From the NCBI GenBank assembly GCA_030062745.1, contig CP099840.1:31251006-31315005 (forward strand): a stretch of 64,000 nucleotides of DNA, given 5' to 3'. Positions 24,401 to 63,700 of this stretch are shown piece after piece (the stretch's first letter is position 1; each line of letters starts with the position of its first letter). A program made the translations under genes and the position numbers. This DNA is from Capitulum mitella (lineage: Eukaryota; Arthropoda; Thecostraca; Pollicipedomorpha; Pollicipedidae). Under the pieces are notes generated by a model. It was not told where the DNA came from. It did no database searches and saw only the letters and a program-made list of their open reading frames with translations.

Positions 24401-27400
24401 TTGGAAAGCACAGTTTTATTTGCAGTTTGCCTGATTATTCGTCGGTTTCCTTTCCGCAAGTAGAAGGATTTTAGAGAGTGCCGTGAGAGCTCATACGAGC
24501 ACGTTAGCCCACCAACACCACTGATTACACAGGGGACGCAAACGCCCGGGAGTGGGGTCAGCGCGCTTGTGGACCTCGAAATCACTTGTTTTGTCAGGTT
24601 AGCGCTGGCTTTGTGTATTGTGTCATCTGTGTCGGTTTCCATTGAACTGTTTTGGCGAGTTGTGCGCCGCGAGTCCGCTCTCCAGCTGTTCTCGTTGTGG
24701 AGCGATTGGGCCTTGTCTGTCCGACCGCGGCCATTGAAGGAAGTCCCCGAGATGAACCTGTGTTTGTCGTGCCGGCTTTGGTCCTTCATTGCATTGAATG
24801 AGTCAAGCGGTGACTGTGCTATGTACGTCGGACTGGGTGACGAATTCTGTCCCGTGTCTCGTGTGTGGCCCTCGCGGGATCCGTCAGCAGAGACGGAACG
24901 GGCAGTAGCAGTATCCTGTATCCCGTACCCCGGGCATTGCGGCAGGCGCCCGCACTCCAACGTGACAACGTTACCCCGCTGTATCCCGAACGCTGGGCTG
25001 GATGTTCTCGCACTCCTACTCACTGTCCTGGACGGATGAAGTGGCAGCCGGACCTTGTGCCCCACGGATCAAACAGCAACTGTACCGCGCAGTCGCCCCC
25101 TCACCCCATCACAGAATAATGGCTGTACCCTGTAGGACAGACCAGTTGGTAACTACGCTGTACCCGGACAGATCGGTCAGTGACTACCGTCTACCCGGAC
25201 AGATCGGTCAGTGGCTGTACCCTGCACCCAGATAGATCGTTCAGTGACCGTACCCTGTGCCTGGACAGATCGGTCCGTGACTATCCTGTACCTGGACAGA
25301 TCGGTCAGTGACCGTACCCTGCGCCCGGACAGATCGGTCAGTGACCGTACCTGTACCTGGACAGATCGGTCAGTGACCGTACCCTGTACCTGGACAGATC
25401 GGTCAGTGACTGTGCCCTGTACCTGGACAGATCGGTCAGTGACCGTACCCTGTACCTGGACAGATCGGTCAGTGACTGTGCCCTGTACCTGGACAGATCG
25501 GTCAGTGACCGTACCCTGTACCTGGACAGATCGGCCAGTGACTGTGCCCTGTCCTCGGACAGATTGAACGGGTCAGTCAGCAGCAGCTGAGCTGTACCTG
25601 GACAGATCGGTCAGTGACCGTACCCTGTACCTGGACAGATCGGTCAGTGACTACCCTGTACCTGGACAGATCGGTCAGTGACTGTGCCCTGTACCTGGAC
25701 AGATCGGTCAGTGACTGTGCCCTGTACCTGGACAGATCGGTCAGTGACCGTACCCTGTACCTGGACAGATCGGTCAGTGACTGTGCCCTGTACCTGGACA
25801 GATCAGTCAGTGACCGTACCCTGTACCTGGACAGATCGGTCAGTGACCGTACCCTGTACCTGGACAGATCGGTCAGTAACTGTGCCCTGTACCTGGACAG
25901 ATCGGTCAGTGACCGTACCCTGGACCTGGACAGATCGGTCAGTGACCGTACCCTGTACCTGGACAGATCGGTCAGTGACTACCCTGTACCTGGACAGATC
26001 GGTCAGTGACTGTGCCCTGTACGTGGACAGATCGGTCAGTAACTGTGCCCTGTACCTGGACAGATCGGTCAGTGACTGTGCCCTGTACCTGGACAGATCG
26101 GTCAGTGACTGTGCCCTGTACCTGGACAGATCGGTCAGTGACCGTACCCTGTACCTGGACAGATCGGTCAGTAACTGTGCCCTGTACCTGGACAGATCGG
26201 TCAGTAACTGTGCCCTGTACCTGGACAGATCGGTCAGTGACCGTACCCTGTACCTGGACAGATCGGTCAGTGACTGTGCCCTGTATTCGGACAGATTGAG
26301 CGGGTCAGTCAGCAGCAGCTGAAGTACGCATTGGCCGGCGTCGATGACGGCGTGTGGACGCTGTTCGCCGAGGAGGGCGAGATGAAGATGTACAAGCGGG
26401 AGGAGGAGGTGGACGGCCTGGCGGTGGACCCGCTGAAGGCGGTGCACGTGGTCTCGGGCGTGACGGCGCACGAGGTCTGCTGGCACTTCTGGTCGCCGGA
26501 CGTCCGGCTGGAGTGGGAGAGTGAGTTTACCGGGGTCTGTGGACCGCCACAGTGTTCTCTGCTGGAGTGGGAGAGTAAGTTTATAGGGGTCTGTTGACCT
26601 CCACAGTGCCCTCTGCTGTAGTGGGAGAGTGAGTTTACCAGGGTCTGTGGACCGCCAGTGTTCTCTGCTGGAGTGGGAGAGTAAGTAAGTTTATAGGGGT
26701 CTGTTGACCTCCACAGTGCCCTCTGCTGTAGTAGGAGAGTGAGTTTACCAGGGTCTGTGGACCGCCACAGTGTTCTCTGCTGGAGTGGGAGAGTAAGTAA
26801 GTTTATAGGGGTCTGTTGACCTCCACAATGCCCTCTGCTGTAGTGGGAGAGTGAGTTTACAGGGGCCTGTGGACTGCCACAGTGTCTTCCGCTATAGTGG
26901 GAGAGTGAGTTTACAGGGGTCTGTTGACCTCCACAGTGCCCTCTGCTGTAGTGGGAGAGTGTGAGAGAGTGAGTTTATCGTTGTGTGTGTGTGTGTGTGG
27001 ACGGCCACAATGTCGTCGGTAGGCGTTTAATGCGATTTGTTGTCGATGCGTCTTAAAAACTACAATAACAAAGGAATTAAAGGAATAGATAGCGAATACG
27101 GAAGCAGAAAAAGCGAAATCGTCAACCCTTTCTGGAAAAGCTGGACGTGGCAGTTTTCTTGCCGTTATCCCCGTGTTAGATGAGCTCAGCCGAGAGCGTT
27201 TCCAGCATCCCTGTCTGGGTCAGCGGCAGGGGAGGGGGATGGCGTTCCTGTGATTGCTGAGATTCATCGGGTGTGACGCAGGATTTCTACACAATGCCTA
27301 GTGAGTCACGGTCAATGCGATAAAACAAGCACGGCCCTGACCTTGCCACTGAGGTGTTCCTAACTGGGGCATTGGAGCCAAACACTTGTTATCAGGTCAG

Positions 27401-30400
27401 ACTAACCGACACTTGGCCCCGGGTGTTGTGACATTTTGACGGCACTGTCATGTATGACTGGGCACGGTGGCCTTCCTTGCTTTTCACCAGTGTCATTTTA
27501 TGGGGGTAACATGAAGGGCATAGGACATTACTCGTAACTACTCACGATTTCTTCCACTCACCCGGTTATGGATAGCGGACGTGTGATATCAGAGAAAAAC
27601 TGAGTAAGATCTGGGCCGTGTGATTAGGGTTTCCGTTTCTTGCGAGACACGCAGAGTGAAAAACAGCAGCGGCCATCCGCATGCCTCCGGTGTGTGAGCA
27701 TTTGGTGAAAACGTTTCTGAAGCTATTCACGCGACATTACCTGTGTTGTAGATGTAACGCTTGTGTCCGTGAAACGGTCGTCCCGTGGAACCGTGTGTCT
27801 GCGAGACACGTGCTTCTGTATCGACGCAGTGGTTTGACAGTTCGGAGGACGGTGTGTGGGTTGGTTATCGGTTGTAGTTGTAGACCATGGCCAGTGATGA
27901 CGTGTTTTGTGGGTCTACGTGAATAATGCCTGCTGACTCGTCTGCGGGCTGTGAGGTTTGGTTATATGTGTGAGCTATGAGCTATGGTTCATTGGTTGGA
28001 CCGATTAAACTGCCCCCCCCCCCTCCCCTGCGGTCTGTCCAACATCGGGTCGTTTCTGTTTGTTCGGACTGTAGTGGTTTTCGTGCGATGTTGAGCGATT
28101 TTTTTTCTTCATTCAATGTGTGCACCTCATATGACCTTAGCATTGTCCTTCCGGTAATGTCCGGTGACTACCTGACCTCTCAGTCCGTGCACAGACAGTG
28201 TACGGAATTGATGTTCCGTCCTCGCTGGCACCCCGCCGGGCCCCGTTCCGCGCTGGCCCGTCACAACAAACAGGCCCGACCAGTCTCCGTCCGTCCGCTC
28301 TCCGCCGGCCGCGTCACCCGGGCCCCGGCGCGGCACCTGACTGCCGAACCCCGGCCGCCCGCAGCCACCGTGGAGCAGGTGACCATTCTGGAGACGGTGG
28401 ACGAGCAGACGGCCATCAACCTGCAGGTGCACAAGCGCGTGTGGCCGGCGGCTCAGCGGGACTCGCTCTTCTGGTCGCACATCGAGCGCCAGGTGGTCGA
28501 CGGCCAGGAGTGGTGGATCGTCGTCAACAACTCGACCGACTACGCCAGCGAGGTGAGCGCGCCGGCCGCCCCGGTCCCTCTCCCGCGAGCCCGCCGGCCG
28601 ACCCCCAGAGGCCGACCCTCAGAGGCTGATCCCTAGAGGCCGACCCCCAGAGGCTGATCCCCAGAGGCCGATCCCCAGGGACTGGTCCCCAGAGGCTGAT
28701 CCCAAGAGGCTGACCCTCCCAGGGGCCGACCCACCCACAGAGGCCGACCCCCTAGAGGCCGATCCCCTAGGGGCTGACCATCAGAGGCCGGCCCCTTGGA
28801 GGACGACCCCCCACCAGAGGCTGATCCACAGAGGTTGACCCCCTGGAGGCCGATCCCCCAGAGGGCGGCGCCCCATGGGTCGACCCCCAGAGGCCTACCT
28901 TTACCGGCCGTAGAGACCGGACCGGCCGTGTGCTGCTGGATCATACTCTGCTGTTTTTTCGTTGGAGGTTTTTTATGACTGATTCTGCGGCGCTGAAGGC
29001 CGAAGTTGTTTAGCCATTGCGAGGAATGCCTTTTTACGTGTGCCTTTTCCGTTCACGACCTGGGAATCTTTCTCATTTTTTCTTGTTTGCCCCTTTCCTG
29101 CCGTCTCTAACGTGCATCTCGTCTGAACTCCTCTGATGATGTGGAACGGTTCCGTTCGCCACTTAGCTTAGACGCTTGTCTGTGACTAACTTGGGCACGC
29201 AGCCTTAAAGTTCTGTGCACAAGACACGAAGGCTGCGCGTATGTAGTGCTGCATGTTTCACGTCGTGTAGTTTTGAGAGCCAGGTGTCGTGGGCTCGTAT
29301 GGGTGTTATTGCCCAATTTATCTAGCCGGCTGCGGCCGTTGCTCCTGAGTTTCGCAGTCTGTGTGCTCGTAGCCGGTGCATCAATGACGCCAGCGAGTCG
29401 TCAGCTCTGCACGCCCGCTCGCGACGTCGACGTTTATCGGCTCTGTTTTCCGGTAGCAAATGAAACTGCACCCACCCTTCCCTCACACGGACGATCCCAG
29501 AGCGGCCGAGGGATGGATCTTTCTGGTAAACGGGCGTCCGCCGGCGCGTGCTGTCGTGTGCCCGCCGCATGTGGCCCCCGGCGGCGGCGCGCCGGGTCGG
29601 CGCCGACGCCGGCCGGCCGGTCGCCCACTGCATGCCGCCTGATGCTTGGCGTCCTGTCACGCGGCGTCCGCGCGCCGCTCGGCCCCCGCTTGTGCGACTG
29701 CTGCGCTGCGCGAGTGGAGATCGCCCGGTCCGTGGCTTCTCTGTGTGCGTGTGCTCGGTAATTCTGTCGCGTGTGATTGTGTTTGTCTAACGAATGTTTG
29801 TCACTTGTGCGTGGTCATTGTGGTCGTCGTGACTTCGTTTGTTGTTTTTGTGTGGCTTGTCCCCTTCCTCGTTTTGACCCGTGCGCGGGGTAAATTTCCA
29901 CGTTCAAACTGCAAGTGCAGGTATGTGTGGTTTTGCTTTGCCAATCGAACTGTGAGTAAGCAAGAGTTGTGATAAATTTGGATTCCTAACTTTTCGTATT
30001 GCGACATCCCAGAATTTCACCCCATTTTCAGGTATACTCACATTTTAACAGCAGGCTGCGGAAAATATGTTTGCTCCACTTTGGTCTTTCTACCAGAGCT
30101 TGATAACAGCGGTAGCCAAAACTTTCAAAATTTCAGCTTGCGTACCAAAATATCACAGGTACATCCTGAAAAAAGGTGGTTTTCCAACTCATGTAAGGTC
30201 GTGTCTGTCATCGAGACAATGCTTATAAAATATTCGCTTTTCATAATGTTTGCTTTGTGCTACCGTATGTATCCTTTTCACGGGACCTGACCGTCACAGG
30301 CCCGTCGGGAATACCATGGATATCAGTCATATGATGTCATGCGTTTCAAGCGTCGTCTTAGGTACGGTCGTCAACGGACTTTGGATGTTTTTTCTCGGAT

Positions 30401-32503
30401 ATATTTCTGCTTTTATGAATGAAACGTGCATACCGCGAACAAAGTATTTCGGGTGCAGAGGTGAAATTTCGTTTCTCGACTTCTCATAAGTTGTAAAACA
30501 GGAACACATTATATGTAAAACGTTAGGCTGTGACCTAAATGGGCCGCGTAACCTAGGCCGAGTTTCTATCACTTGGCGATTGTTTGGGTTGTTGCCAAAG
30601 TTCGTAATTGGACTGAAACCTTATGTTACCACCCATTTAGTACTGGGCCTTGGTTTGCAACAGTCATTAATTTTAAGTTTACCCGGTTGGTAAGTCATGA
30701 TTCCGTCGGGTGATGGGCAGCCGATGGCAGCCCAGATCACCCGAATCCGCCCATTGGTTTTCAAGGCGGACGGTGGAACTTCGGTAGTGATAGGTGGCAA
30801 AATACTCAAAAAATGCCGGTTTCGGAATTACAGAACAGGTGCCCATTGCGTATGTGCATGATGATATCAGTGACTGATCTGGACGATATGTGGTATCTGT
30901 AATAGGATCATTTTGACGTTGTTTTATGGAGTCGCTGTTGTAACTGGAACACGCGACCCCGTCAGCAGGCTGTTGCTGTCGGTCCGTCTTTTTGTCGCGC
31001 GCTGCCCCTGTCAGATGTGGTTTGTTTGCGCGCACACCGGCCTTCCCCAGCCGGTCTTTGGTGGCCGGTACTCTGCTTTTCCGAGCGCCCTGCTCTCGTG
31101 CTTTGGAGCCAACGGCGACCGCCGGCAGGCGGAGCTGTCTGATGCCACGACCGGAGGCGCATTGTGACCTCTGGCCATGTACAGAATATGTTGTCATTAA
31201 TCGCGATGCACTGTGGTAAATACGTGCATTTTGTTATTGATATAAGCGCTTCGGCTAACAACAAGAGGCCTTATCCTTCGTGGCTGGTCTGCCACGGTGT
31301 CGTGGTCTGCACTGGTTGGTAAGGCCTCGGCTTTACTGTGAATGCAGTGACATGGTGCTCTGAGTACTGCATGCCTGACCTATGAAAGCGTTCGTGAACA
31401 GTTAACCAAGCAAGCAGTCAGGTGTTGCGGATTTCGATGAATGACGCTGAACGTCATGTTAGTAACAGTGACGCCGTTCCGGTTGGCCGTTTCCTGGTGT
31501 GTGCTCTGTCAGTTGCGGACGTTCTCGTTGTGATCTGCAGGGAATATGGGACGTCCGTTGGAAGTCGTCGTTGGCTTTCGTTTTGTGACGTTTGGGATTC
31601 GGAATTTGTTTGAGCTGTCTCCGTCTGTGTGGGTTTTATGTGCGGGGTGTTGAGTCCGTCAAAACTTGTCTGCTCAGCAGATGCGGTCTGTTACATTTTA
31701 TGACGGTTTTAACTTTACCGAGGAGCTCGCATTGATGTCAGGGAGTTCGTGTCCTTTCGTTGATAGATAAGTAGGATCACTCATGGTTCCTTTTGGCTGT
31801 GAAGGTTTGTTGTTTTTGGGCTGCCGATAGACGTTCTACGTCATTGTCTTCTGTAAGGAAGTGAAGGCACACGAACTCGATCTGTTTCATCTGGGCAGGC
31901 AAGAATGCGAGACAGATGGTCGCAAGAGATGACAAAGGGTCTGCTCCTGTAATTCAGCGCGGGGCCTGTCGCCAGTGTTACCCACTAACTGCGTGTTTGA
32001 ACCGGTAGGCGGCGCGCGAGTCGAGCGACAAGTACGTGCGAGTGCTGCTGACGGTCTGCATGGCGTGCCAGACAGAGATAGTCGGCGACAAGTCCGACCT
32101 CTCCAAGGTCACCCGGGACCAGCTGCGCTGCAAAATCACCTACTGTTCCGTCGGTGAGTTTCGCGCGTCCGTGACGGGTGGGGGCCACAGTGTAAGCGGC
32201 CGTTTTCCCTGTCATCTGTCTTCGTTGCCGGCGGTGTGTAAGGTTGCCCGTTTACTGCTCTGCTATCGACAGCGATCCTTGTTTCCGCCTGCGCCGACTT
32301 GCCGCCGCCGGGCGCCTCGCCTCAGCGACGCGGACTCCGAGGGAGAACTGACTGACCTGCCGCCGTGTGTTGCAGTAAACCCCGGCGGCTGGGCGCCTAC
32401 CTCGGCCCTGCGCATGGTCTACAAGCGCGAGTACCCGCGCTTCCTCAAGCGCTTCACCGGCTACGTCATAGAACAGTGCAAGAACAAACCGATCCAGTGG
32501 TAG
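9415..32503 (+). CDS. CERT1: Ceramide transfer protein (CERT / StARD11 family)
   Basis: CERT extracts ceramide at the ER and delivers it to the trans-Golgi for sphingomyelin-type lipid synthesis. Coding exons: 9415-9559, 10309-10391, 10950-11069, 11585-11687, 11887-12006, 12568-12627, about 12932-12981, 13618-13845, 24001-24165, 26295-26520, 28365-28552, 32009-32153, 32376-32503, giving about 586 residues (human 598-624). Domains in order: PH (residues about 20-116, with [15 protein letters not shown] and [10 protein letters not shown]); serine-rich motif ([13 protein letters not shown]), known in the family as a phosphorylation switch; coiled coil ([18 protein letters not shown]); [14 protein letters not shown] motif (EDEFFDAVE, residue about 313) that binds ER VAP proteins; C-terminal START domain ending NPGGWAP...[10 protein letters not shown] start at ATG 9415; a second ATG follows directly. 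Phases agree throughout except at the seventh exon, whose best-looking acceptor (12891) is out of phase. Minisatellites made of splice-site copies flank exon 26295-26520. Confidence 0.95.
14828..14908. repeat. GATCCG/ATCCAATCC-rich cluster
   Basis: Degenerate short repeats built on GGATCC, GATCCG and ATCCAATCC. A similar cluster lies at 17068-17190 and a smaller AATCAATCC patch at about 15340-15375. The two larger clusters might be the ends of one decayed 2.3-kb element, but I could not align them convincingly. Confidence 0.4.
16553..16565. promoter_or_regulatory. Perfect palindromic AGGTCA-N-TGACCT site
   Basis: AGGTCA, one base, TGACCT. This is the IR1 palindrome bound by the ecdysone receptor EcR/USP in arthropods (established for the motif). 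It lies about 2 kb upstream of the candidate alternative CERT start exon. Function here is inference; such sites also occur by chance in AGGTCA-rich repeats. Confidence 0.35.
17068..17190. repeat. GATCCG/ATCCAATCC-rich cluster, second
   Basis: Same short-motif composition as 14828-14908, including ATCCGATCCGGATCCG. Possible partner end of a decayed element. Confidence 0.4.
18571..18930 (+). CDS. Candidate alternative first exon of CERT (PH-less isoform) or nested gene
   Basis: A 120-codon open stretch starts at ATG 18571 in a near-ideal context (CCGCCATGG) and ends in phase 0 at a good donor (GCACGAG|GTAGGC). It lies inside the 10-kb CERT intron and is in phase with the acceptor of the FFAT exon at 24001. 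The product begins [20 protein letters not shown], a strongly basic stretch; residues about 50-90 form a short heptad-like coiled coil ([20 protein letters not shown]). Upstream sequence (18200-18500) is CpG-rich, as at a promoter. If spliced to 24001, the protein would keep FFAT and START but have this basic tail in place of the PH domain. I recognise no homologue; a separate nested gene is the alternative. Confidence 0.5.
19230..19372. repeat. Three-copy tandem repeat of about 50 bp
   Basis: Units contain GGAGGTCCGGGCCCGGT and TGTAACGC. Three copies follow each other within the CpG-rich zone downstream of the candidate CERT start exon. Confidence 0.7.
19670..19826. repeat. 60-bp tandem repeat, about 2.6 copies
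   Basis: The unit begins GGGACTGTGACTGCAGTGAC and ends GACACGTGACC. The first two units are virtually identical and the third partial copy diverges (GATTGCGGCGACC), which suggests recent duplication. Confidence 0.85.
24001..24165 (+). CDS. CERT1: CERT exon carrying the FFAT motif
   Basis: The exon has 55 codons and is phase 0 at both ends. It encodes [20 protein letters not shown] and a basic stretch (KMRKKQHIK). The acidic EDEFFDAVE is the two-phenylalanine-in-an-acidic-tract motif that docks CERT on VAP in the ER membrane. Phase-0 symmetry lets it accept either the upstream exon 13618-13845 or the candidate start exon 18571-18930. A weaker, diverged copy of its donor neighbourhood recurs about 79 bp downstream (near 24245). 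Confidence 0.9.
25120..26294 (+). repeat. 33-bp minisatellite made of copies of a splice acceptor
   Basis: About 35 tandem units, mostly 33 bp, with core CTGTACCTGGACAGATCGGT. The array ends at the true acceptor of CERT exon 26295-26520 (CTGTATTCGGACAG|ATT), of which each unit is a recognisable copy. One internal block (25563-25590) reproduces the first 28 bases of the exon, so exon sequence was captured in the expansion. Long frames through the array are repeat artefacts. Confidence 0.9.
26295..26520 (+). CDS. CERT1: CERT exon, start of the START lipid-binding domain
   Basis: The exon encodes [20 protein letters not shown] and continues through [16 protein letters not shown] and [12 protein letters not shown] to RLEWE. 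Entry is phase 0, exit phase 1, both matching the neighbouring exons. I chose the acceptor TTCGGACAG|ATT because it gives the family-like [18 protein letters not shown] junction. Both edges lie directly against minisatellites built from copies of the same splice sites. The first 28 bases are also repeated at 25563-25590. Confidence 0.9.
26517..26965 (+). repeat. 54-57-bp minisatellite made of copies of a splice donor
   Basis: About eight units, each starting GAGTGGGAGAGTGAGTTTA or GGGAGAGTAAGT. The first unit is the real junction: exon 26295-26520 ends GAGTGGGAGA and the intron begins GTGAGT. Some later units read GTAAGT, a better donor consensus than the authentic site. A short (GT)n run lies just after the array at about 26985. 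Confidence 0.9.
28591..28910 (+). repeat. Degenerate minisatellite near a CERT donor
   Basis: About 14-bp and multiple-of-14-bp units built on CCGACCCCCAGAGG and CTGATCCCCAGAGG. It starts about 40 bp after the donor of exon 28365-28552. Unlike the other arrays it does not contain the splice-site sequence. Confidence 0.75.
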
Positions 32504-35399: not shown

Positions 35400-35406
35400 T
35401 ATAAAA
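35400..35406 (+). promoter_or_regulatory. TATA box of the secreted-peptide gene
   Basis: TATAAAA lies 51-57 bp upstream of the start codon at 35457, the spacing expected for a short leader with transcription starting near 35430. Confidence 0.7.
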
Positions 35407-35456
35407 GCTGGGCCGCCCGTTGTTTTCACCATTGTGTGTTTGGCTGCGACGACAAC

Positions 35457-36837
35457 ATGAACACGAAACTGGTGAGTAAGAAACTCCGCCTTCACTCACA
35501 GACGGGTGTCTCAACCGCGCCCGCGACATGTTTTGGTGGTGCGCGGTACCAGCGTTCAGTAGTCAAGCAAATTAACACTCTTGTTGGGAATATTACATAA
35601 ATCGTATTACATGAATGAATGAAATGGGAGGTGGAAGGTGGATACAAATATGCAGGGGAAAAATACTACGGAATTTACGGAGACTTCCAAAGATAGACTT
35701 TTCAGTCTGTCTTGAACCCTTTAAGTCGCTTAAATCATTATTAGTTATTACTTAATACTTTTCCCTCGATCCAGGGGAAGCTATTGGTTTCTGCAAGAGG
35801 TCTGGGCGTTCTGTAAAAACGGAGCTGGTAAAGTCTAGTCTGCAGCAAAGTTTAGCCTGTAAGGTAGTCCGTAAAGACGCCTCTGATCCGGAGACGTCAG
35901 ATGCCTCCCCGAGAGGCGGTGCCTCCGATATCAGGCCGCGCTCCTGTGTCCGGCCGGCGCCCTGTGACCGTGACCGGCTCCGTCCGCAGATGGTTCTGAG
36001 CGCCGTGCTGGCCGTGGCCGCGGCGTACCCGCGCTACGTGCTGGTGCCGCTGGACCAGGTGGAGATGGCGCCGCCCCGCGTTCGCGTGGCTCGTCAGGCG
36101 CCGCTGCCCGCCCTGGAAGGGGTCCCGGTTCCCGCCGCCTCCGACGACAGGTCTGTTGCCGACTTCCCCGCCCGAGCTGTATCCGGACATACCGCGGCCG
36201 CCGGACGAGCCCGCCCGCGGGGTCACTGATGCCTACTTGCTGCCGGAAAAGATGATGGAAAAGATGAGGACTGGGCTGCTTTTGATGCCCGCTAGTCGCA
36301 TCCTTCCAGTGTAACGTCTGCCTTGTAAAGTATGTCCCCGTTGCTGCCCAAATAGCGCCCGTTTCCCATAAACAGTTGTTCAGTTTAAACTCTCCAAATG
36401 TTCTCCGCAGCAACGCGTCAGATTTCAGCTGGAATGGTAGGTTTGAGCGACTTACGAGGTACTGTGCGTCTGTCGACAGATTCGTGCGTCAGACTGACGT
36501 GCTGTGCGTGTGTTGGCAGGTCCGTGCGTCAGATGGACGTGCTGTGCGTGTGTCGGCAGGTCTGTGCGCCAGACTGACGTGCTGTGCGTGTGTCGGCAGG
36601 CCCGTGCGTCAGACTGACGAGCTGTGCGTGTGTCGGCAGGCCCGTGCGTCAGACTGACGTACTATGCGTGTGTCGGCAGGCCCGTGCGTCAGACTGACGT
36701 GCTATGCGTGTGTCGGCAGGTTCGTGCGTCAGTCGGAGTCCGGGTACGGCCCGGCCCAGGTCGACTACGGTGCGTACACGGGCGGTAAGGGCGCGTTCGG
36801 CTGGTACGCCGACTACCCAGTCGGCGGCCGCCGGTAG
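35457..36837 (+). CDS. Small secreted Gly/Tyr-rich peptide (cuticle- or neuropeptide-like)
   Basis: Three exons: 35457-35471 (MNTKL), 35990-36150 and 36720-36837, total 97 residues. Donors are GTGAGT and GTCTGT; acceptors are CGTCCGCAG and TGTCGGCAG. Phases (0, then 2) agree. The N-terminus (MNTKLMVLSAVLAVAAA) is a signal peptide, probably cut before YPRYV. A five-codon first exon followed by an intron inside the signal peptide is a common layout for arthropod cuticle proteins. The mature chain has a Pro/Val-rich part, basic sites (RVRVARQ, DRFVRQ) and a Gly/Tyr tail (GGKGAFGWYADYPVGGRR). The terminal GGRR could be a processing and amidation signal, so a neuropeptide-like precursor is the alternative to a cuticle protein. 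I recognise no exact family. The intron before exon 3 carries an array of acceptor copies. Confidence 0.75.
36461..36731 (+). repeat. 40-bp minisatellite made of copies of a splice acceptor
   Basis: About six and a half units containing GTGTCGGCAGGCCCGTGCGT, ending at the true acceptor of exon 36720-36837 (GTGTCGGCAG|GTTCGTGCGTCAG). Each unit carries the CGGCAG acceptor and the first dozen exon bases; after CGTCAG the units continue ACTGACGTGCT where the exon continues TCGGAGTC. Confidence 0.9.
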
Positions 36838-37783: not shown

Positions 37784-37789
37784 TTTATT
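37784..37789 (-). terminator. Likely cyclin B polyadenylation signal
   Basis: AATAAA on the minus strand, about 400 bp past the cyclin B stop codon; the first such hexamer I see downstream. Confidence 0.5.
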
Positions 37790-38188
37790 CATCACCGGCG
37801 AGCATGTGGCGCCACACCGCCGCAGCGGCGTAAAACAAACTACTCGCGCGCATCATCACCCGGCGAACAAAAGATTAGAGGCGTCAGCACACAGCGACAA
37901 CAGGGGACAGCAGCACGTAAGGGGCGGAGACCGGACAGAACGGACGGCGACATCGACAATCTAAAATCGGGACGGCAGCGCCCGCTCGCAGAGTATTTCA
38001 AACAATCTCTAAAAGTAGTGATAATCTCCTAAAGTCCTCAAAGGTAGCAATGCTTCCGAACCCTGCTGCACACAAAACACGGCCAAAAAATCCAAACTAG
38101 TCAATCGCCAACGTTCGAACGGCTGCGGCCCCGCGGCGCTGACGGCGGCTGAGCTGGGCGCGGCGGCTGTCCCGGCCCGCTCGGCGGC

Positions 38189-41100
38189 TCAGAGCGGCGC
38201 CTCGGCCGCCAGCTCGGTGATCACCGGCCCGGACAGCTCCGGCAGCACGCTGATGCACATGAACTTCTTGGTGGCGTACTTCCGCGCCACGGCCTGCGAA
38301 CGTCACATGCTCAGACCGAGCCACTGGTCGGGGAAAATAGGCGTCAACAACCCTTCCCGCCCAATAGCGCCCGGAATAGGGTCTTTTCGGACCGTCTCCT
38401 TGAAATGGACGGCGATTTCCTGCCACCAGCGTCAGTGAAAGCGAACGGGAAAACAAATGATCCGGCCGCACTAGTGTACAATTAGTGTAACGGTCACGGC
38501 AGTCCAATCAGTGCCCAAAAACGCAGTGTATTACATTTCAGGCTTAACGACTTACCAAATCGGACCTACGCACCGCCACATTAAAAAGACAGAAGCCCGA
38601 AAGAAAGACGAAAATCGCAAGAAACCAGCTCTCACAACACGTTATGCCGGCGATCCGCAGCCACCTTGCACGGACACGTGCAAAGTGGCTGGTTAGGTTA
38701 GGTTAGGTTAGGTTAGGTTAGGTCACCACGCGGGAGGTCACCTGAACAGGCATCACACACAGCCGGACTCCGCGGGTCCGCACAGCGCCCTCCTTACCAC
38801 GCGCTTGGCACGGGAGTCGGTCAACTTGTCGTTGGCCTTGAGCACCAGGTCGGCCAGGCGGCACATGATTGGCTTCAGCCGGTTCTCCTCGTAGTAAGAG
38901 TAGTAGGTGAGCGTGTCCGTCCAGCCCTCGGTCTCGTCATCCCGTAGCACCCTGGCCACAACAGGCGACACAATCGCGTCACGTGACCATGAAGGAAACA
39001 GCTCCGGCTTGGCCCAACATGAATGCCATGTGAAAGGAGTCCCGAATAAGATACCGAACAACACCAAGGATATTCAACCAAATCACCGGTACTGTGATAC
39101 TCTGGTTTTTTCCGGCAAATTTGACAGAAGGCATCCAGTTTTATCAAACAGAAGAGTCACAGCTTAATTCCCAACCATTCAGACGTATATAATACGGAGC
39201 CATAAAAGATGACTAGCGCAAGTTTTCGTCACACTGGCAAAGCACACCAACTCCCGCAAGACGCACCACTTGTCAGACAAAGAATACCAGTGCCACCCTC
39301 CCCGAACTTTCATGCAATGTTTCCAGCTGACGGAAATAGAACAGGAATTCCGTTTTGTACTTAGCTTGCAGACCAAGTGAATCTGTATTTAGAATGTATG
39401 CAGAAAGTGAATTCACATTAAGCTTGAAGACAGAGTGAATCCAACCGTACAACAGACAATACTCCGGAGAAATCCTACTGCCGCGCAGACACGCCGGCGC
39501 CGTCTGGACCGACCCGTGCACGCACTTGAGCGAGAGGCAGAGAGCGGCGGCGGCCAGCTGCGAGACCAGGCAGTGGGCCAGACCGTACTCCTGCAGGCTG
39601 AGCTCCATCAGGTACTTGGCCAGCGTGTGCTGCCGATTGTCGACGCAGCCGGCCTTGCTATTGCGGCGCAGGAAGTGCAGCGGCAGCGGCCGGCCCAGGT
39701 CGAACCGCAGCGCAGTGAGGATCCGGCGCTCCATCGCGCGCATCTGCTCCGTGTCGAACGACTTGTCGGCGATCACCACGAAGTCGTTCACCTCCGGGGC
39801 GTAAATCTCCTCGTACTTGCTGGCGATCCACATGCACGTCACGCCCACCATCTGCAGCTGGTTGGGCGTGATGGACGAGTCCACCTGAGAATAAGACGGG
39901 TCAGGCGCGCATCGGTGGTCGAAAAAAAACGACAAACTACTTCCTAGACAATGCGAGATAACAGCGAAAGCGCAATTCGCAATCGTCAGAAGCGGATCCA
40001 TATTTCCGAACGTCAGAATACGTTCCGAGTGAATGGCGAAATGACCAACGCGCGACAAATGCGATCGCCTTAACCCTATTCCCGGAGGGCTACACGGTAT
40101 GGTCGATTCCCGGGAGGGGAGGGGGGGGGGCGGATTCGGCCCCCCCCTGAGATCTGGAGAACTACACATCCGATTTCATCGCAACAAACAACAATCGATT
40201 TGCCATGACGTGAACTACATTTTTATAAGAAATTTTCAAAATTTTGAAATTTGTGGATACAGGGGGGCAAAAATGTCAAAATGGGGGTACTTTTGGACTT
40301 CGTATAACTCCGTTGTTTATCGACCGATTTCGATGAAACTGGCATGAATCGAGAGATTATGAATAGGGGTTCTACCATGGATCCACAAATCTGAAATTTT
40401 GAGAAAATTCATGGGCGTTCACAGGGTTTCAAAAATAGGAGGATTAGTTTTCTAACAACTGGATGAACAAAAGAGGCAAACACCCTTTTTTGGCTTCTGC
40501 TAGTCATGTTATACTAAAGAAGTACAAATCGCATTACAATGTTTAAATAATGTTAGCATAGGCGGTGCCAGGGACATGAAAAAGGGGAGCTGTCATGGTC
40601 ACACGTTTCTCAGATCAACTTGTGACCTTTGACCTTAAATGACCTCCAGTGACCTTGGGGTCATTTGGAATGATCTCGTGTGCATTTAATATTATCTGTA
40701 AACGTTTGCAATGATTTGAATTCACTTCATTTAAAAAATTCATGTTATGGCTATTGCGATATAGGGTACGCGCACTGAACATTTCAGGTCATAGCTCCGT
40801 GACCTGACCTGATATCAAGCTGAAACTTGGTATACAAGTAGAGGGCATAATTCTACGACACATATATTCCGGGTTTGGCATTTGAAAAAACGGCGCCGAA
40901 ATTATTGCAAAAAAAACAAATTTTGACTTTTGACCTTGACCTGACCTTGTAAAGTGACCTCAGATGAACAAAATTGTATCTGCACATTGCCCAACTATCT
41001 AGCTATATATCTATGTAAAGTTTTAAGTTCTATCTTAAAAACTCTGTTTTTGGCAGACATTTTCCTTTTACCCTCAACATGGCCAAAAATGGCCTGAGGT

Positions 41101-45635: not shown

Positions 45636-45654
45636 AATAATAATAGTAATAATA

Positions 45655-45689
<35 letters not shown>

Positions 45690-45702
45690 CAATAATAATA
45701 AA
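45636..45702. repeat. (AAT)n microsatellite
   Basis: Nearly pure AAT/ATA triplets with a few AGT interruptions. Confidence 0.95.
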
Positions 45703-45869
45703 AAAGTAAAAGTATTACAAAGATGGCAAAGTGTAGTTCCAATTTGAAAAATACAAAAAAAACAAAAAGCAGTGAAATATAATATCTGAAAAAAAATCAC
45801 GGAACAAAACTGGAAAATATTAGGAAGTGAAATAAAACAATAAATGAAAATTTACCCTAGCCTAACATA

Positions 45870-46185
45870 GTAACCAAACCTAACCTAACCTAACCTAACC
45901 TGACCTAGCCTAGCCTGGCCTGGCCTAACCTAGCCTAACCTAACCTAACCTAACCTAACCTAACCTAACCTAACCAAACCTAACCTAACCTAACGTAGCC
46001 CAGCACAAAAAATCACGGAACAAAACTGGAAAATATTAGGATGTGAAATAAAACAATAAATAAAAATTTACCCTAGCCTAACATAGTAACCTAACCTAAC
46101 CTAACCTAACCTAACCTAGCCTAACCTAACCTAACCTAACCTAATCTGATCTAACCTAGCCCGGCACAACCCAACCTAGCAACCT
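45870..46185. repeat. Interstitial TAACC (telomere-type) repeat tracts in a duplicated block
   Basis: Two tracts of CCTAA repeats with CCTAG/CCTGG variants. Each is preceded by the same unique sequence containing AATCACGGAACAAAACTGG, at 45795 and 46011, so a 216-bp unit (unique part plus telomere-type tract) has been tandemly duplicated. Orientation is opposite to the tract at 38691. Confidence 0.9.
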
Positions 46186-50039: not shown

Positions 50040-50062
50040 ACTAGCCTGAGCAGAGAGCAGCG

Positions 50063-54700: not shown

Positions 54701-57700
54701 ATCGGTTCAGGCAGCGGAGCGGGACCAGATCTGAAAATTGAGTCAACATTGACTGCCGAGTCAACTCGCATCTTAATCCGGGGCCGGTCATGTCGGTGAG
54801 AGAAATCACTGCGACATGCGATGGATGCAGCCGTGGAATTTGGAGTCAAATTAACTTTTGGGCCAAGCCGGTCAGTAGAAATACACATGAGTGTATTTCT
54901 ACATACATTCAGCATCATGAAACTATGGACCTTTCTCATGATAAACCTGTGAGTCCAAGTGGTACATAGGAGACTCAGTGGAACAGCTGACGAAATGCTC
55001 CATTTCAGCCGGACTCCAGCGGCAAGCAGGCGCCGAAGACAGTGCTGCAGCTGCAGCAGCTGCAGCAGCTGATGGCGACGTCGCGGGTCGGCTCGTCCTC
55101 CTCGGAGGCTCAGCCGAGCAGCCGGCCGACAGCTGCGGCCGGCCAGCTGCCCGGCGCTGGCGGGGGACCTCACAGCGGCCAGGCCAGCTGGCACACGGTG
55201 TCGGGCAGCGGCAGCCTGCCGCCGCAGGAGGCCTCCCGACAGTCGCTGCTCGGCACCGGCTCGGCCCTGGCCCAGCGCCGGCCGGCGCCGGCCGGACCGC
55301 CGCCCGACGCCGCCCGGCAGGTCGGCGCGGCGCCGGCGCCGGGCCAGCGGCAGCCGCCGGAGCCGGCTGTGCCGCCGCCGCCGCCGCCGGGCGGCACGAC
55401 GTCATCACTGGGGCGGCGGCGGCCGGCCGGCACGGCGCGCTCGGCCGAGCTGCCGGCCGAGCTGCCGGCCTCGGCCCGCTCGGCGGCCAGCTCCGCCAGC
55501 TCGGCCGGCACCACCTACCTGCTGCCGGGGGACTCCAAGTCGCAGGCGGCGGCCGGCAGCTCCAAACAGCTCGGCAGTCACGTCGATCAGGAGGTGAGGT
55601 CGTGCCGGTCGGCCGGACGGAGAGACTGGGCTCATTCCACTGATGGCGAATTATGGTTGACTGGTCGGGTTCAGCCGTTGGCGTTCTGCTGATTAGACAC
55701 TTGAGATGTAACGCAAGTTTTTTGGCTGTTCCGTTTGTTTGATCAGTTTCTTCAGTGTCTTTTCCACCCGCTTTTTTGGAGGGGGGGGGGCGGGGGTAGA
55801 GGTTGCTGCTTGCTGATTAAACTGACGGGAAATCCAAGAAAATTTTCTTGTTTGAAGCTACTGTTTTTACCGGAACTCGCCATGAGGTGATCTGCCGTAC
55901 TTAACTGGAGGTATTATGGCAACTTTTGCGCGGGGAGAATAAAAATTTCCCTGAATTTCGGATTGTTTGCTTTCGTGGCGCAAAGCTCGCTGGATCTTTG
56001 CTTGGTCTGAGTCGAAGACAAATTAAGTTTCTCTGCCCGCTGCAGATCTATTGGTGTGGCTGGAACGGTACCTCCAAGGACAGGATATGTCCGCGCCGGC
56101 GCTAACGTTGACTGTGATGCGCCCCCAGGGCTCGGAGACGGGCTCTGGCCTGCGTTCTGTCAGCGAGACGGGTCTTGTGGCACATCACGGTGGGACGGAG
56201 CCGACCAATCCAGAACAGGTGGACGACGTCAGCCAGCTAAGACAACAGTTCCAACTGCAGCAGGCCAAACTCCGCCAAATGGAGCAGAAAAATTACGTAA
56301 GTTCAGGAATTCTGTGTCGCCTTTGCCGCCAGTCTTTCGGGGATATGGTTTGCGAATCGGGAGCACTTGTCCTTTGCTAAGGAAGATGACCAGTATTTTA
56401 TCACTGCACCGATATTGTTCTCATCTAGGATATTTTTAATGATACGTTCTCGATGACAGGGATGACATGGACATGGACATGGACCTACGCAAACCTGGTG
56501 CCGCTTCGAATGCTTCAATGTCTCCCACATGTATAAAATAGCAATGTCCGCTGCCAGGTTCTGAGCCTTGCGGTGGAGGGCCAAGAGAAGACAATCCGCA
56601 CCATGAGTAACGAGCTGCAGGACGCCAAGGAGGCGTTCTCTTTGGAGGTCACCCAGCGGCTGAAGGGCGGAGACGCCAGCGCCGCGGCCGCCCTGGTCCA
56701 GTTCGGTCCGGCCCGGCAGGAGGTCGGAGGGGTCGGACAGGAGACGGCGCCCGGACAGGATGGAGGGCTGCCGACCCTCTCCGCCCAGTCCTGGGTGAGA
56801 CCTCCCGTGACGTGACGGGGTCGCGCGTTCAGCCGTCACAGGGCGGAACGTCGTGAGGTCCTGATGATGACCACGGTTCGAGCCTGGGTGAAGGTTTGCA
56901 TTGCGCCAAAGATTGAGTTTTACGGCATGTTCTGCGAAAGGACGCAGTTTATGACACACTGTGTGCAGTAATGAATATCTGAGTACAGCAAATAATGGGG
57001 ATTCTGTTAGTAGTAGTATACACACCTGACTCTCTCTTGGTGTGTTTTTTGGCAGTAAATTACTCATTGCATTGTCTATGCCATCGTGCGACTCTCGACA
57101 TTTTCCCAGTTTGCCTGACTGTATGTCACGTAGGCACGCACCCTTTTCTCTTTCAACAGCCGATTGCGTCTACTAAAACGGAAATTTTATCGGAACACAA
57201 TGGCGATCACGGAACAGAGGTGGAGAGACTTCACGCCGCTCTGGAAAGAAAGGTGAGAATGAAGGCTAGGCGCAGGAGAAGCGCCGAAATGCAGGACACC
57301 AGCAGATTCTACGGCAACCGTAAATGTCTTCAACCGAGCATTAACCCTTCACCGCCTGAAGGGTGTCAAATATGGCAACCCCCTCGGTTTTTCTTGAATA
57401 ACTTCTAAATCGTTAGAGCCAGCCCAATCAAATTTTCAGTACCCCTTCAGCGATCAGTTTTACATGTTTTAACCAAAAGCATTTCTATGCTAGGTCAAAT
57501 CATGGAGATATGACGTCATAAATGAACCCTTGCATGGATGTTTTCGCCTCTTCGAGCGGTGGCGCGAACCTACCTCGGTTTTGATAATATTTGAGAATAT
57601 AATGCGTGAATTATTTGGATTTACATAGGACACGGTCCCAAAAGCATGAACAACCGTGAAACGATAACATTAGAGGTCATGCTAGGCCAAAGCATGATGA

Positions 57701-60700
57701 CAGTTGGACTGATTTGCATGCTGGGTGACAGAAGTGGTTGCCGCCGACCTTCCCCATCGTTCAAGCCAGACAAGCAAATATTTATGCGCCTCTTAGCAAG
57801 GCTCAGCAAACGCAACGTAAGGTCATGAAAGGTCACGTCATAGGCAGATGTCAAAACGGAATAAAATGCAGCATTGCCTGAGGAAGATCGTTCAGTAGCA
57901 GCAAACAGGAATTGTTCTTCCTAGCCAGCAAATTATAACGGCTGATTGTCCTTCCCTGGCTTGACCTTGGCCCGATAAAGAGCAGGAAGTGCAGATTTTA
58001 TTACCGTGACATATCATTTCAGTTTTATACTTGACGCAGTTAAGAATTCCAGTGAGTAATTATTGCTCGTTGTCAGGAAGAGTAATGCAGCTTTATCTGA
58101 CCCAACCTAGGCTGATCTTGACAGAATGAAAACCAGGTGATGCAAAACTGGCCGTCAGAATGTTTTATTTCAGTCCTTTTTGTCACGTGGATCAAAATAA
58201 CTGCGAATAACTATCAATCTTTGGCATATACATTACGAGAAATATTTCACCTGGCCTAAGTTGACCTTGACCCGATATTTTTTGACTTTCTGGCATGCTT
58301 CTGATGCAGGAGATCGTGGCCTTTCGTTTGACACCCATTTGAAGGCTCTAAGACCAGTATTACCGATGATATGATGTACAGACCGATGCCAGTTTTTCTG
58401 GCTTCGTGTTTGCGTTTTACGTGACCTGTGATGTCATCAGTCACGTGAACTGGGCTTACGTTGTATTTTCTGAATCGCGAGACTCAGAGCTATTGATTGG
58501 TGGAAGACCGGTTCAGATCCGACGGTTAGTTCCGGAGATAGCAGGGGGTGCCTTTTTTGACACCCTCAGGCGGTCGCGGGTACAAAATCACGCCAAGCGG
58601 TGCCGGGGTAAGAGCCAAAAAGAGCCATATGGCCTCTACATGCTCTTTTCGTACAGTTATGCGTTGGTTGGAATGAAATGAGAGGTGAAGAAATACCCTC
58701 GTTGAAGTCCTACTTGAATGATCTCGAAGATAAATATTTCAAAAAATGCATGGGTTATGTTCGGGAAACATGCCGACCCGTATGTACACCGTGTTGCTTC
58801 TACCTTTTCTAGGACTGTGAGCTGCATATCCTAAAGGGAAACAGAACTGGCACAGGCCTGAAGTCGCACTCAACAGGAAAACCCAGGCCCGTCCCCTCAA
58901 CGATCGGCTTTAAGCCGCCTGAACCGGTAACGAACACATCGCGCTTGATACCAATATCCAGTGTGGATCTCAAAGTTTGGGCAAGGGGGCAGGGCCCATG
59001 TAACGAACGCGTCTGAAATTGAGGAAATGTTGGGAAAATAGTAATGAAATTCGAAAAAGGGCGCGTTTCGGCCTCGAACATTTGCACTTGGGTCCTCCCC
59101 CAAGTTCATCCACAATTTTGTTTTTTGTATAAATTTAACCCGAATGTGTTGCAATGTGTGACGCCACCCAGGTGTTCTCAAAGATTCATGATGAAATTCG
59201 CTCCGAAGATAAGATGATGGCTCCATTTGATTAGGTCATCCTGTCTGGCCTAGTTTGAATGTGGACGAAATAACCAAATTTTTAATAATGTATGCAGGTA
59301 ATGTTGGTGGGTGAAATATATTTTATGGAATGGACTTCACCGGTGTCGCGACGTACTGGGGAGATACAGGGCGATTGCAGGGCATTGCGGTCTGTCCACT
59401 GTGGTCATCGACCTTTAGTCTGTTCACTGCAATCAGTGCACTGCAGTAAATGTGATGGTGAAGTACTAAAGAGCTTTAAGTCATCTTTCAGGCCAAAGTA
59501 TCTGAACTTCGAATAATCCCACCTAAAGCGGTGTCCAGTGCCTCAACCGCCACCTACAGACGGGGAGATTATGCCTTGAATGAACGTTTTGATGAAATAA
59601 CTGGGCTGAACACTTCCAATGGCGAAATCGCGTCGCTTTCTTTCAATGCTGCTAATGAGTAAGATGATGGGACATCGTCATCCCGGTCACCGGCATTGCG
59701 GCAGATGGATATGAAGTTCTTTCCAAGTGAGTATCTGGCGGCGCTGCACTGATCGGCCGGGGGAGGAGATGCGGGCTGTGGGTCCCTGAGACCACAGACA
59801 GGACAGTGCTGACCCCGGGCGCGGTCTGTGACGGTGTGCGCCGCTGTGCCAGCAGCCGGGCCTGTCGGAGGGCTGGCGGACTCGCCTGGACGGCGGCCGG
59901 ACCCGTTCCACGGAACTGCACCGGGCCCAGCCTGCAGATGGAGCGCGTCACGAGCCGACTCCCCTGCGGCGTCACAGCTTCACCGTCCCGCCCCCGGTCA
60001 GTCTTGTCCACCCTGGTCAGTCCTGTCCACTCGGTCAGTCCTGTCCACCCTGGTCAGTCCTGTCCACCCCGGTCAGTCCTGTCCACTCGGTCAGTCCTGT
60101 CCACCCCGGTCAGTCCTGTCCACCCTGGTCAGTCCTGTCCACTCGGTCAGTCCTGTCCACCCCAGTCAGTCCTGTCCACCCAAGATCAGTCTTGTCCATC
60201 TCGGTCAGTCCCGTCCACTCAGTCAGTCCTGTCCACCCCGGTCAGTCCTGTCCACTCGGTCAGTCTTATCCGTCCTGGTCAGTCTTGTCCACCCAAGATC
60301 AGTCTTGTCCATCTCGGTCAGTCCCGTCCACTCAGTCAGTCCTGTCCACCCCGGTCAGTCCTGTCCACCCCGGCCAGTCTTGTCCACCCCGGTCAGTCCT
60401 GTCCACTTGGTCAGCCCTGTCCACCCCGGTCGGTGCTGTCCACTCGGCCAGTCCTGTCCGCCCCGGTCAGTCTCGTCGACTCGGTCAGCCCTGTCCACCC
60501 CGGCCAGTCCTGTCCACCCTGATCAGTCTTGTCCGCCCCGGTCAGTCCTGTCAATCCCGGCCAGTCCCATCCACTCAGTCAGTCCTGTCCACCCCGGTCA
60601 ATCCTGTCCACTCCGGCCACTCTTGTCCACTCGGTCAGTCCTATCCACCCCGGCCAGTCCTGTCCATCCCGGTCAGTCCTGTCGGCCCCGGTCAGTCTCG

Positions 60701-63700
60701 TCCACCCCGGTCAGTCCTGTCCACTCGGCCAATTCTGTCCATCCCGGTCAGTCCTGCCCATCCCGGTCAGTCCTGTCCGCCCTGGTCAGTCCCGTCCACT
60801 CGGTCATTTCTGTTCATCCCTTCAGTCCTTACTTGCGTAGCTCGAGCCGCGACTTTCTCTGCCCGTTGGCAGCGTGCCGACGACGCCTGGAGGAGTCAGG
60901 TATTGGCCAGCCGGTCCAGCCCGCTGGCCGGCCGCCTGCCGCCGCTCGTCAGGGACCAGTACGCCGCAGGAGGCGTCGGCCCCAGAGCCGCAGGTCAGAG
61001 CTCGGCCGACCCGCTACATTTATTTTAATCACTCAGTTATTCAGCAATTAGTTTACAGTTACTTGGAAATAGTCTGTTGCCGACTTCACCGAAGAAGACA
61101 TCGTAATTCAGTTTCAAAATACGAAACATCATTTTAACCCCGGAAAACGCTTTCCATTCGACAAGCTTCTGAGTAAAACCACAATAAAAGGTTGCCCTGT
61201 GTTAACCACTCGCTGTCATACCGCTCGCGGGAAATACAAGTTTTTCTCGTGATTGTTGGATCCCGGTTACGGTGCGGCCGTAGGTGCGAGTTCGTGAATA
61301 CCTGAATCAGCTCCCCCATCTGCAGCGTACGAGGGCCGCTGCCAGGAGCTGAAGGAGACGGTGGACGAGAGTCTGGCCCGTGTGCGGGAACTGGAGGCCC
61401 AGCTGTTCGAGCTGAAGTGCAGTCGAGACCGCGGTGACAACGTCGAGGTCAGTGATCGCGGCATGCGCTGCATCCAGGGCAAGGAATCCAGTAAGAGAGC
61501 TCCTGTGGGCCTGGCCCCGAAAGCCGAATACGTGTGCATTATAAAGATATCAAGTTTAAGTAAACATTTTGCGGTTAAATCATTACAGTTTGATGCAGTT
61601 TAATCGTCACGAAGGAGGTCGTAATAATTTAACTACATCAGAGCTGCAGTGACCGAAAAATACCAGTCTGACGAAAACAGGCAGCAAAGGAAAGAGCGCC
61701 GAGGTTGTTCCCATTGTGCTAACTTGATGTGGACGACGACTGAGGCAGTAGGTGGATTACAAAAGCGGCACAATCTCTTAGACCGCCATTGAAGAACAGT
61801 ATCAGCGACGCTCCGTTCTTCCCGTCAGGTTCCTCTGCTGGCGGGCGCTGGTCTGCCAGAGATGACCGACCTGGGAGCACTGGGTGCCGGCCCCAGCTCC
61901 CTCTGCAAGCCGTTCCCTCAGATCCTGCGCATGACGGAAGTCAAGCTGCAGCAGGCCTACCAGAGCCTACTCACTGAACAGCACAAGAACAAACTACTGC
62001 ACAAAAATCTGCATGAAATCACCTCCAGGGTGAGCCTTGACTGTCGCGGCATGCATATCAGGGAATTCTTTTCGAATGTCTCTTCGCAAGGGAAATTTGT
62101 TAATTCGTGTGGAAATTGAAGCAAGCAGCGTATAACACGATATCTTGTTTTCTCCTCAAGTTTTCATTTTTCTTTGCATTGTTTTGCGCACAACCATCAG
62201 AACTATTTAAACCATCGTGGTTCATCGTGCTATGGCGAACAGCCAGACATTTGTAAAACTGCCATTGGACTTCTGCCTTCGACGTTTTTACGGATAAGTT
62301 TTCATAGGATCGACAGCACTACTCTGTCGTATTCACGCACGACACTCGGGTGCTTCACCGAGTGGGTGGTGAAACTGACGGTGAATTTTCAGCTGGAGCA
62401 GCACAGCGCTCAGACGGAGAAGCTGAAGGAGAGACTGTCCGGCTCGGTGGAGGAGCGGCGAGTGCTGCAGACCCGGCTCGCCGCCGCCGAGGGCTCGCTG
62501 GCCGAGACCCAGCGACAGCTGCAGGAGCTCAGGTCCGCTCGAGACGGGCTGCCGGTTAAACGCGGCACGGAACTCCCCATAGTATGTCTTACCGCAGGAC
62601 AACGGTGGTTGTCACTTCTCAAACTACGGGGCAGATCGCAGGACGGCAGTGGTTTAAATCTTTCGATTCGGGATGACAGTGATTACCAGTTACGTTATTG
62701 CGGAGCCTCGGGTGCAGCACACATGAACTCGCCTTTGACTATGCAAGCTCAGATGCAGCACAACTCATGACAGTTATGGTGATAGTTATTTACCGAAGGC
62801 ATCTTAAACTGGCGGCTGCGGGTACTCGGATATCACTTTCCCAGTCCTGGATAAGTTAAACTGCGCTTCACTTGAGCGCAGTTATGTCACGTTATGTTTG
62901 CTGTGCTTTCCGTCAGGGAAGAGCTGCACCGCAAGACTGAACTTTTGGCACAAACTTCACAGCACCTGGATGACCGGATCGAGCAGGTGATTTCATGTGG
63001 GATCAGTGCGTGAAGAATCGCCCACAAAAGTATTGCTCCTACGCTTCTCATAAAATGCTAGTCGTCTGATGGTCGACTGTGTGCTGTTTTCTTCCCAACG
63101 GGCAACCAAAAGGCTTTACTCTCACAAGAAGCTGGCATGCTACTACTAGAAGGGCTGCATTATGTTGCATCGCGACGCAAAATGGTCTAAAGCAGAACAG
63201 TCGACGTGGTCCGGCAGACGCAATTTTAATTCACCGTCTCGTCGCCAGGTGTCAGCACTGAATCGGGAGCTGGACGCCACCCGATCCGAGGCGGTACACG
63301 AGGCGCGTCTGGCGGCGGAGCGACTCGCAGAACTGAGAGAGCACATCGCCGAGCTGGAGGCCCGTACCTCCAAACAGGAGGCCGAAAACAGGCAGCTGCG
63401 CCAGGCCAGCGAGGAGGCCGGACACCTGTCTCAGGTCAGGAGAGACGGAACAACTGTCTCAGGTTAAGACCAGGACACCTGTCTCAGGTCAGGAGAGACA
63501 GGACACCTGTCTTAGGCTAGGGGAGACAGGACACCTGTCTCTGGTCAGGAGAGACAGCACACCTACAGACAGCACACCATGTCTCGGATTTCGGGAGCTG
63601 ACAAGGCGAAATACTCTGATGCTTTCTGACCCGTACGTGTCCGTCTGGTGACTTCACAAGTAATGGCACGTGCTGGGGTTTGAGTAAAAGTGACCTCTTA

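Follow-up and report, generated by a model that had tools for sequence, protein, structure and literature searches.

Mirage arrays: minisatellites that span exon-intron borders in several genes of an apparent arthropod

Five minisatellites in a 64,000-nucleotide stretch of an apparent arthropod genome (G000:C2:31251006-31315005, hereafter the window) lie on splice junctions and reiterate the junction on which they lie. Further arrays of the same build occur in other genes of this assembly (477,042,490 bp in 16 contigs). They are real and recurrent, and they belong to a kind already known from another lineage. In amphioxus, minisatellite-like tandem duplications that cover 5' as well as 3' exon-intron boundaries, often with AG or GT kept, have been described under the name mirages in part of PMC3087553. 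The sequence-only reading that first drew attention to the window arrays knew of no named system, a claim that this precedent overturns. We consider it probable that each array descends from a founding tandem duplication that happened across an exon-intron border, through ordinary minisatellite birth at GC-rich edges.

Five arrays in the window

Tandem arrays were called by the program TRF, and exon borders were set by reading frame. All five arrays were recovered about where the sequence-only reading had placed them, each with a unit that holds the junction together with exon bases (Table 1). In every window array the frame is kept by the exon-most copy of the junction, and 3-35 copies of similar score lie in the intron. 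Counted as splice-site-like if they have at most 4 mismatches of 12, and with the functional site included, these copies number 94 in all; in A4, single copies score as low as 0.6.

Table 1. Arrays, the enclosed exon and other minisatellites of the window. A slash marks the exon-intron border; scores are the mean over copies and the value of the functional site.
Feature	Positions	Strand	Unit (TRF)	Junction	Support for junction	Splice-site-like copies	Mean/functional score	Description
A1	25154-26296	+	33 bp x 34.6	acceptor ggacag/ATTGAG at 26295	frame, Pfam START, intronless paralogue	36	3.2/3.8	acceptor mirage, 3' end of intron before the CERT/START exon
START-domain exon	26295-26520	+			frame, Pfam START, intronless paralogue			between A1 and A2
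A2	26507-26961	+	54 and 112 bp	donor GGGAGA/gtgagt at 26521	frame, Pfam START, intronless paralogue	13	4.6/4.7	donor mirage, GTGAGT/GTAAGT, up to 16 exon bases
A3	36462-36732	+	40 bp x 6.8	acceptor cggcag/GTTCGT at 36720	frame only	7	3.3/3.2	acceptor mirage before last exon of small secreted-like protein gene
A4	59992-60829	+	19 bp x 44.7	donor CCCCCG/gtcagt at 59997	frame only (phase-0 continuity 59856-59996 / 60873)	34	3.0/3.9	donor mirage, most of an 876-bp intron of coiled-coil gene
A5	63420-63564	+	28 bp (x ~5) and 53 bp	donor CTCAG/gtcagg at 63435	frame only (AGHLSQ/SERRLRQ)	4	3.7/4.5	donor mirage
Minisatellite	28596-28899	+	14 bp				 	~43 bp inside intron, without junction; counter-example
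Minisatellite	19244-19370	+	42 bp x 3					10-kb intron, away from known junctions; counter-example
Minisatellite	19659-19830	+	60 bp x 2.8					10-kb intron, away from known junctions; counter-example

How far the copies match the exon was measured on those that agree with the core at 10 or more of its 12 positions. Identity on the exon side extends over 10-16 bases in A2 (16 in six of nine copies), 9-15 in A3 and 15-17 in A5. It covers 8 bases with up to two mismatches in A4 (twelve copies shown of 27), where the unit itself accounts for about 5. For A1 the description holds in part: the core of the junction is repeated, a typical unit retaining ggacag/AT plus a shifted ggtcagt, but exon bases are mostly missing (about 2 contiguous ones), except in the copy at 25563, which alone qualified and matches 28.

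A1 and A2 flank a START-domain exon of a CERT-like gene that is encoded on the plus strand and has PH and START domains by Pfam. Contig C12 carries an intronless START gene (L004), the protein of which aligns through both junctions (E 6e-83, 50% identity, 234 amino acids). The complete CERT-like gene does not read in a continuous frame, the break lying at exons 12568-12981, some distance from the arrays; the exons next to A1 and A2 were checked separately from the full gene.

Some other origins were considered and rejected. A genome-wide DNA search with a 311-bp piece of A1 returned seven matches, all inside its own array; of the five matches to an A2 query, four were its own copies and one was the exon of the paralogue. 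A1 and A2, the two arrays tested, thus occur only in place, which points to a local origin and not to a dispersed element. Translated repeats are rejected because of stops inside A2, A5 and the myosin array L026 described below; A4 is open, and is judged intronic by frame alone. On the assembled sequence, error in the assembly is rejected as a sole cause, given that copies vary by point changes and that eight arrays are spread over contigs C2 and C14. Every array is contained in a single frame-consistent intron, and no extra intron was seen.

Recurrence in other genes

The same anatomy was looked for in ten myosin loci, picked by the coordinates of Pfam Myosin_head exons, and in two 100-kb blocks placed beforehand at 5.0 Mb of contig C1 and 8.0 Mb of contig C3. 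L030 is an eleventh, partial myosin locus with one exon only, and loci L032 and L037 were fetched to extend the arrays of L031 and L034. Junction-spanning arrays were found in three places among the ten myosin loci (L026, L031/L032 and L036), so that both the recurrence and the identity of unit and junction hold outside the window too. The L026 array spans a donor at L026:5533 after the residues ISAAGYPSR, with CGGATACCCGTCCAG on the exon side of its unit and GTGGGCAG on the intron side. The L036 array (7909-8122) spans a donor at L036:7909 after RGTPARDVTR, and its unit includes 38 exon bases. Both of its spare copies carry GC where the donor in use has GT, which possibly reflects selection against spare sites, or simple decay.

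The L031 array, an acceptor array, lay where the sequence first retrieved for this locus stops, and its unit reads CTGCGCTCAG up to the border and GAGGAGTACGTG after it. Myosins continue with EEYV at this position, and the next exon was therefore predicted to start directly after the array. The next kilobase (L032) confirmed this forecast: it shows EEYVREGIKWRQIDYFNN and an exon reading EEYVREGIKW, and the Pfam Myosin_head match spans the two exons when they are joined. A large array in L034/L037 was considered as a donor mirage and rejected, the fetched flank showing that it is intronic. Together with the window, the mirages lie at five donors (A2, A4, A5, L026, L036) and three acceptors (A1, A3, L031/L032), and the eight units differ from one another by eye.

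Genes with verified exons in blocks C1 and C3 (EBF-like, endophilin-like, Argonaute and glutamine-synthetase-like) contained no junction-spanning array. Pfam assigns TIG to the EBF-like gene, BAR to the endophilin-like gene, and ArgoN and ArgoL1 to Argonaute; the fourth gene, whose tested exon has no Pfam match, we take to be glutamine-synthetase-like. Arrays in the endophilin-like gene may have been missed, because two of its exons did not turn up. An array beside the EBF-like donor (block C1 69379-69509) was not counted, as it begins 17 bp inside the intron.

Some further sites deserve mention in their own right. In L027 (646-940) a donor is accompanied by a 19-of-24 copy that has lost its GT, 86 bp downstream, and by a 17-of-24 copy 290 bp downstream; these are possibly old junction duplicates. 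A 33-bp array in an EBF-like intron (block C1 63017-63473; G000:C1 near 5.063 Mb) has units with TGTGCAG and TGTGAGT and follows a good-looking acceptor (63512, minus strand) where no junction is known; there may be an unrecognised exon. Upstream of the endophilin-like gene, a 41-bp array on the minus strand (block C3 89324-89488; G000:C3 near 8.089 Mb) has a unit with a very strong donor, CAG/GTGAGG, of score 7.5, possibly a mirage at an untranslated exon.

Junction-spanning arrays compared with chance

The sequence-only reading held chance placement to be implausible. We compared observed counts with a null that scatters founding units over introns with uniform probability and lets any placement across a junction persist. 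Arrays were counted if they reached a TRF score of 150 or more and a period of 9 or more in introns bounded by verified exons, which left out the L030 array and, of the 23 such arrays in blocks C1 and C3, the 18 located outside verified introns. Missed exons were assumed to number 20 in the myosins, 2 in the EBF-like gene and 3 in the endophilin-like gene. Strong arrays span a junction in five of eight cases in the window and in three of four in the myosins, as against none of two in the EBF-like gene and none of three in the endophilin-like gene; the Argonaute and glutamine-synthetase-like genes have no strong array. For all arrays, 8 of 17 span a junction where 1.24 are expected (P 4.8e-6 to 6.5e-6), and in the window alone 5 do so where 0.64 are expected (P 1.2e-4). 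Outside the window the count is 3 of 9 against 0.59 (P 0.015; 0.031 pooled; 0.054 with L030 as a miss). For a 40-bp unit, 6-16% of intronic arrays would be expected to span a junction.

Base composition supplies a plain cause for part of this excess. Mean GC is 0.61 in 102 exons and likewise 0.61 over the initial 25 bp of introns, falls to 0.48-0.49 at 150-225 bp and stands at 0.52-0.54 deeper in. GC is at least 0.54 in 16 of the 17 strong arrays. When seeds are limited to sequence of GC 0.54 or more, with array interiors excluded for the window only, 2.11 of 17 arrays are expected to span a junction and 8 do (P 3.6e-4); outside the window, 3 of 9 do so against 0.95 (P 0.058; 0.014-0.078 over five thresholds). 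Chance placement is thus implausible for all arrays taken together (8 of 17 against 1.2-2.1), and the claim becomes marginal once the window is left out.

These figures bear on one alternative, in which arrays fall at random within introns, those that preserve a junction are tolerated, and the window is a lucky cluster. The small and only marginal numbers outside the window, the lack of junction-spanning cases in blocks C1 and C3, where five strong arrays were counted within verified introns, and the mixed outcome of the word counts given below are all in its favour. It has to contend with the P values for all 17 arrays under both nulls (from 4.8e-6, uniform, to 3.6e-4, GC-weighted) and with three myosin cases, one of them forecast from its unit. 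We regard it as improbable.

Are junctions active seeding sites?

A second alternative is that junctions themselves seed arrays, through R-loops, spliceosome-linked breaks or polymerase-theta-like end joining, such that the arrays would be a by-product of transcription or splicing. The share of strong arrays that span a junction agrees with it, as does one genome-wide count. The sequence-only reading had proposed a genome-wide enrichment check, which was run here as a count of tandem triples of donor words and gave a mixed answer. The donor 9-mer CAGGTGAGT, counted by word alone, has 96 tandem matches at 20 loci, whereas five control 9-mers with identical base composition, made by scrambling or reversal, have 0, 7 (2 loci), 0, 13 (4 loci) and 14. 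Its single occurrences in 350,510 bp are alike: 2, against 3, 1, 0, 2 and 2 for the controls and a mean of 2.1 for 300 CpG-free scrambles. In contrast, the donor 9-mer CAGGTAAGT has no tandem triple genome-wide, although its singles are commoner (6 in 350,510 bp). The broader motif CAGGTGNG shows a weak excess, with 1851 tandem matches against 733, 1480 and 1186 for three control words, one of which matches array A4 itself. Among the matches listed for the opening 31.9 Mb of contig C1, it occupies 20 loci, against 6 and 11 for two of the three controls; its singles in the retrieved sequence number 57, against 65, 43 and 57.

A count of nearby repeats speaks against active seeding as well. Copies with at least 18 of 24 matches within 300 bp accompany 8 of 228 junction 24-mers and 70 of 1252 intronic control points 40-240 bp away, with no excess at junctions; the comparison is blunt, as many control points fall within the same arrays. 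The marginal count outside the window, 3 of 9 arrays, weighs on the same side. Taking both sides into account, we find active seeding rather unlikely. Its extension to the lineage, in which junctions would be hot spots of tandem duplication linked to transcription or splicing, with arrays at 2-3% of junctions, introns growing outward and an inner copy occasionally recruited as a new splice site, seems unlikely to us. Mirages were found at 8 of 234 junctions counted (two of them intron ends beyond the retrieved sequence) and at 3 of 156 outside the window. Overall, the enrichment at junctions is moderate and comes partly from base composition; a splicing-linked origin is possible.

Origin and fate of the spare copies

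According to the duplication model that we favour, the genome produces many GC-rich minisatellites. GC content is high in exons and within 50 bp of either intron end, so that short direct repeats in these parts would be duplicated, presumably by slippage or end joining. Because the exon-most copy of the junction adjoins unchanged exon, the mRNA need not change and the event can be neutral. The spare copies would land in the intron, where the array may grow by unequal exchange, and duplications deeper in exons would be purged. As an outcome, introns would gain length at their ends and contain numerous spare splice sites. Among the mechanisms that the sequence-only reading had offered, tolerance of junction-preserving duplications fits best.

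We infer that the exon-most copy alone is used. Read-through past the donors of A2, A5 and L026 meets stops, and so does a start at the previous acceptor copy of A1 or L031; use of a spare copy in these arrays would therefore be penalised. In the units of A3 and L031, a CTGAC motif lies 26 and 19 bases upstream of the acceptor, respectively. CTGAC is a branch-point-like motif, and each copy of these two arrays may therefore be a whole 3' splice module. No branch-point-like motif was found in the A1 unit by the CTGAC pattern.

Several observations weigh against this model. Over the stretches examined, no stop is met on reading through A4 or L036, or from the faithful copy inside A1. A start at the A3 acceptor copy before the functional one gives a shifted frame that stays open over 30 codons. 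In addition, the 8 arrays seen where 2.1 are expected under GC weighting indicate that something beyond GC may contribute.

The repeats could also be functional, as a device for regulated splicing or intron retention, or as a source of new exons or introns (Rogers-type intron gain). The mean splice scores of the copies are close to that of the functional site, and part of PMC3087553 proposes such a route for globin introns of amphioxus. Against this idea, no new intron was seen, each array occupying one frame-consistent intron; the units differ in every gene; and both L036 spare copies show GC at the place of the GT in the donor that is used. We judge it highly improbable.

Relation to known systems

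Mirages of amphioxus have been reported, in part of PMC3087553, from Adh3 and the globins BflGb6 and BflGb9, with further loci cited; a part of PMC3902484 adds that lancelet PGBD5 carries such duplications and cites Adh and troponin C (TnC). As far as these sources go, the arrays described here are the same in that the unit spans the boundary, unrelated genes and both boundary types are affected, and many copies keep AG or GT, the exception being the GC copies of L036. They differ in phylum, ours being a probable arthropod, judged from the TTAGG-type repeats of the window and general background. Units measure 19-112 bp here, compared with 10-72 bp in Adh3 and 150-160 bp in the globins of amphioxus, and A1 and A4 have about 35-45 copies, compared with 3 and 6 in the amphioxus globin case. 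The evidence here comes from sequence alone, in one assembly.

The nearest relative by type of event is intron gain by duplication across a boundary in potato RdRp, as told in part of PMC4974935. There too, a tandem duplication covers the intron-exon boundary and the splice signals come from the parent; in contrast, our arrays have many copies within one intron, and no new intron is seen. Introner-like elements and stwintrons (treated in part of PMC8469720) share with mirages the repetition of sequences that contain splice sites. Unlike introner-like elements, our arrays are gene-specific (A1 and A2 tested) and their units differ by eye. Ordinary intronic minisatellites are likewise GC-rich arrays of variant units, but in mirages the unit includes the junction and exon bases; parts of PMC12783039 and PMC6905558 describe minisatellites that are intronic, with no junction-spanning units. 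Among open-licence PMC papers listed by searches on minisatellites and exon-intron borders, and as far as titles and abstract beginnings tell, junction-spanning minisatellites were described for amphioxus only; the term mirage itself was queried solely in combination with amphioxus.

The occurrence of mirages in an apparent arthropod suggests that they are a general product of minisatellite-prone genomes, beyond cephalochordates. They offer natural test cases for how the spliceosome chooses one site among dozens that look alike, and a measurable path by which introns grow. Should junctions turn out to be mutational hot spots, it would become possible to test directly how splicing and DNA duplication are connected.

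Other features of the window

A sixth site pointed out by the sequence-only reading (24166..24250, plus strand) has one 17-of-24 donor match 80 bp away. In the same region, 17 matches are reached by 0.8% of 2000 random window 24-mers, and 76 of 1252 intronic control points reach 17 against their own introns; the site is possibly a single decayed donor duplicate.

Exon candidates, and only these, were proposed by a strict home-made gene finder. A3-A5 did not stand out in its local-shift test (local p 0.27-0.33), so that little weight attaches to its negative result for the 28 arrays listed in blocks C1 and C3. Besides the CERT-like gene, Pfam identifies a cyclin gene on the minus strand and a Cwc15 gene. 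The small secreted-like gene that holds A3 has no Pfam match, and two pieces of the coiled-coil gene that were searched matched no Pfam family above its cut-off.

The intronless START-domain gene (G000:C12:15025002-15028100, minus strand) encodes 605 amino acids and looks like a retrocopy. Within the 10-kb CERT intron, positions 18571-18930 form a long open GC-rich exon with ATG and donor, likely an alternative first exon or the promoter of a START-only isoform. The source transcript of the retrocopy was perhaps one that starts at this exon, which has a similar MGL... start. Interstitial TTAGG/TAACC arrays, of the arthropod telomere type, lie at 38691-38723, 45871-45994 and 46087-46158; the flanks of the latter two, about 216 bp apart, are near-identical by eye.

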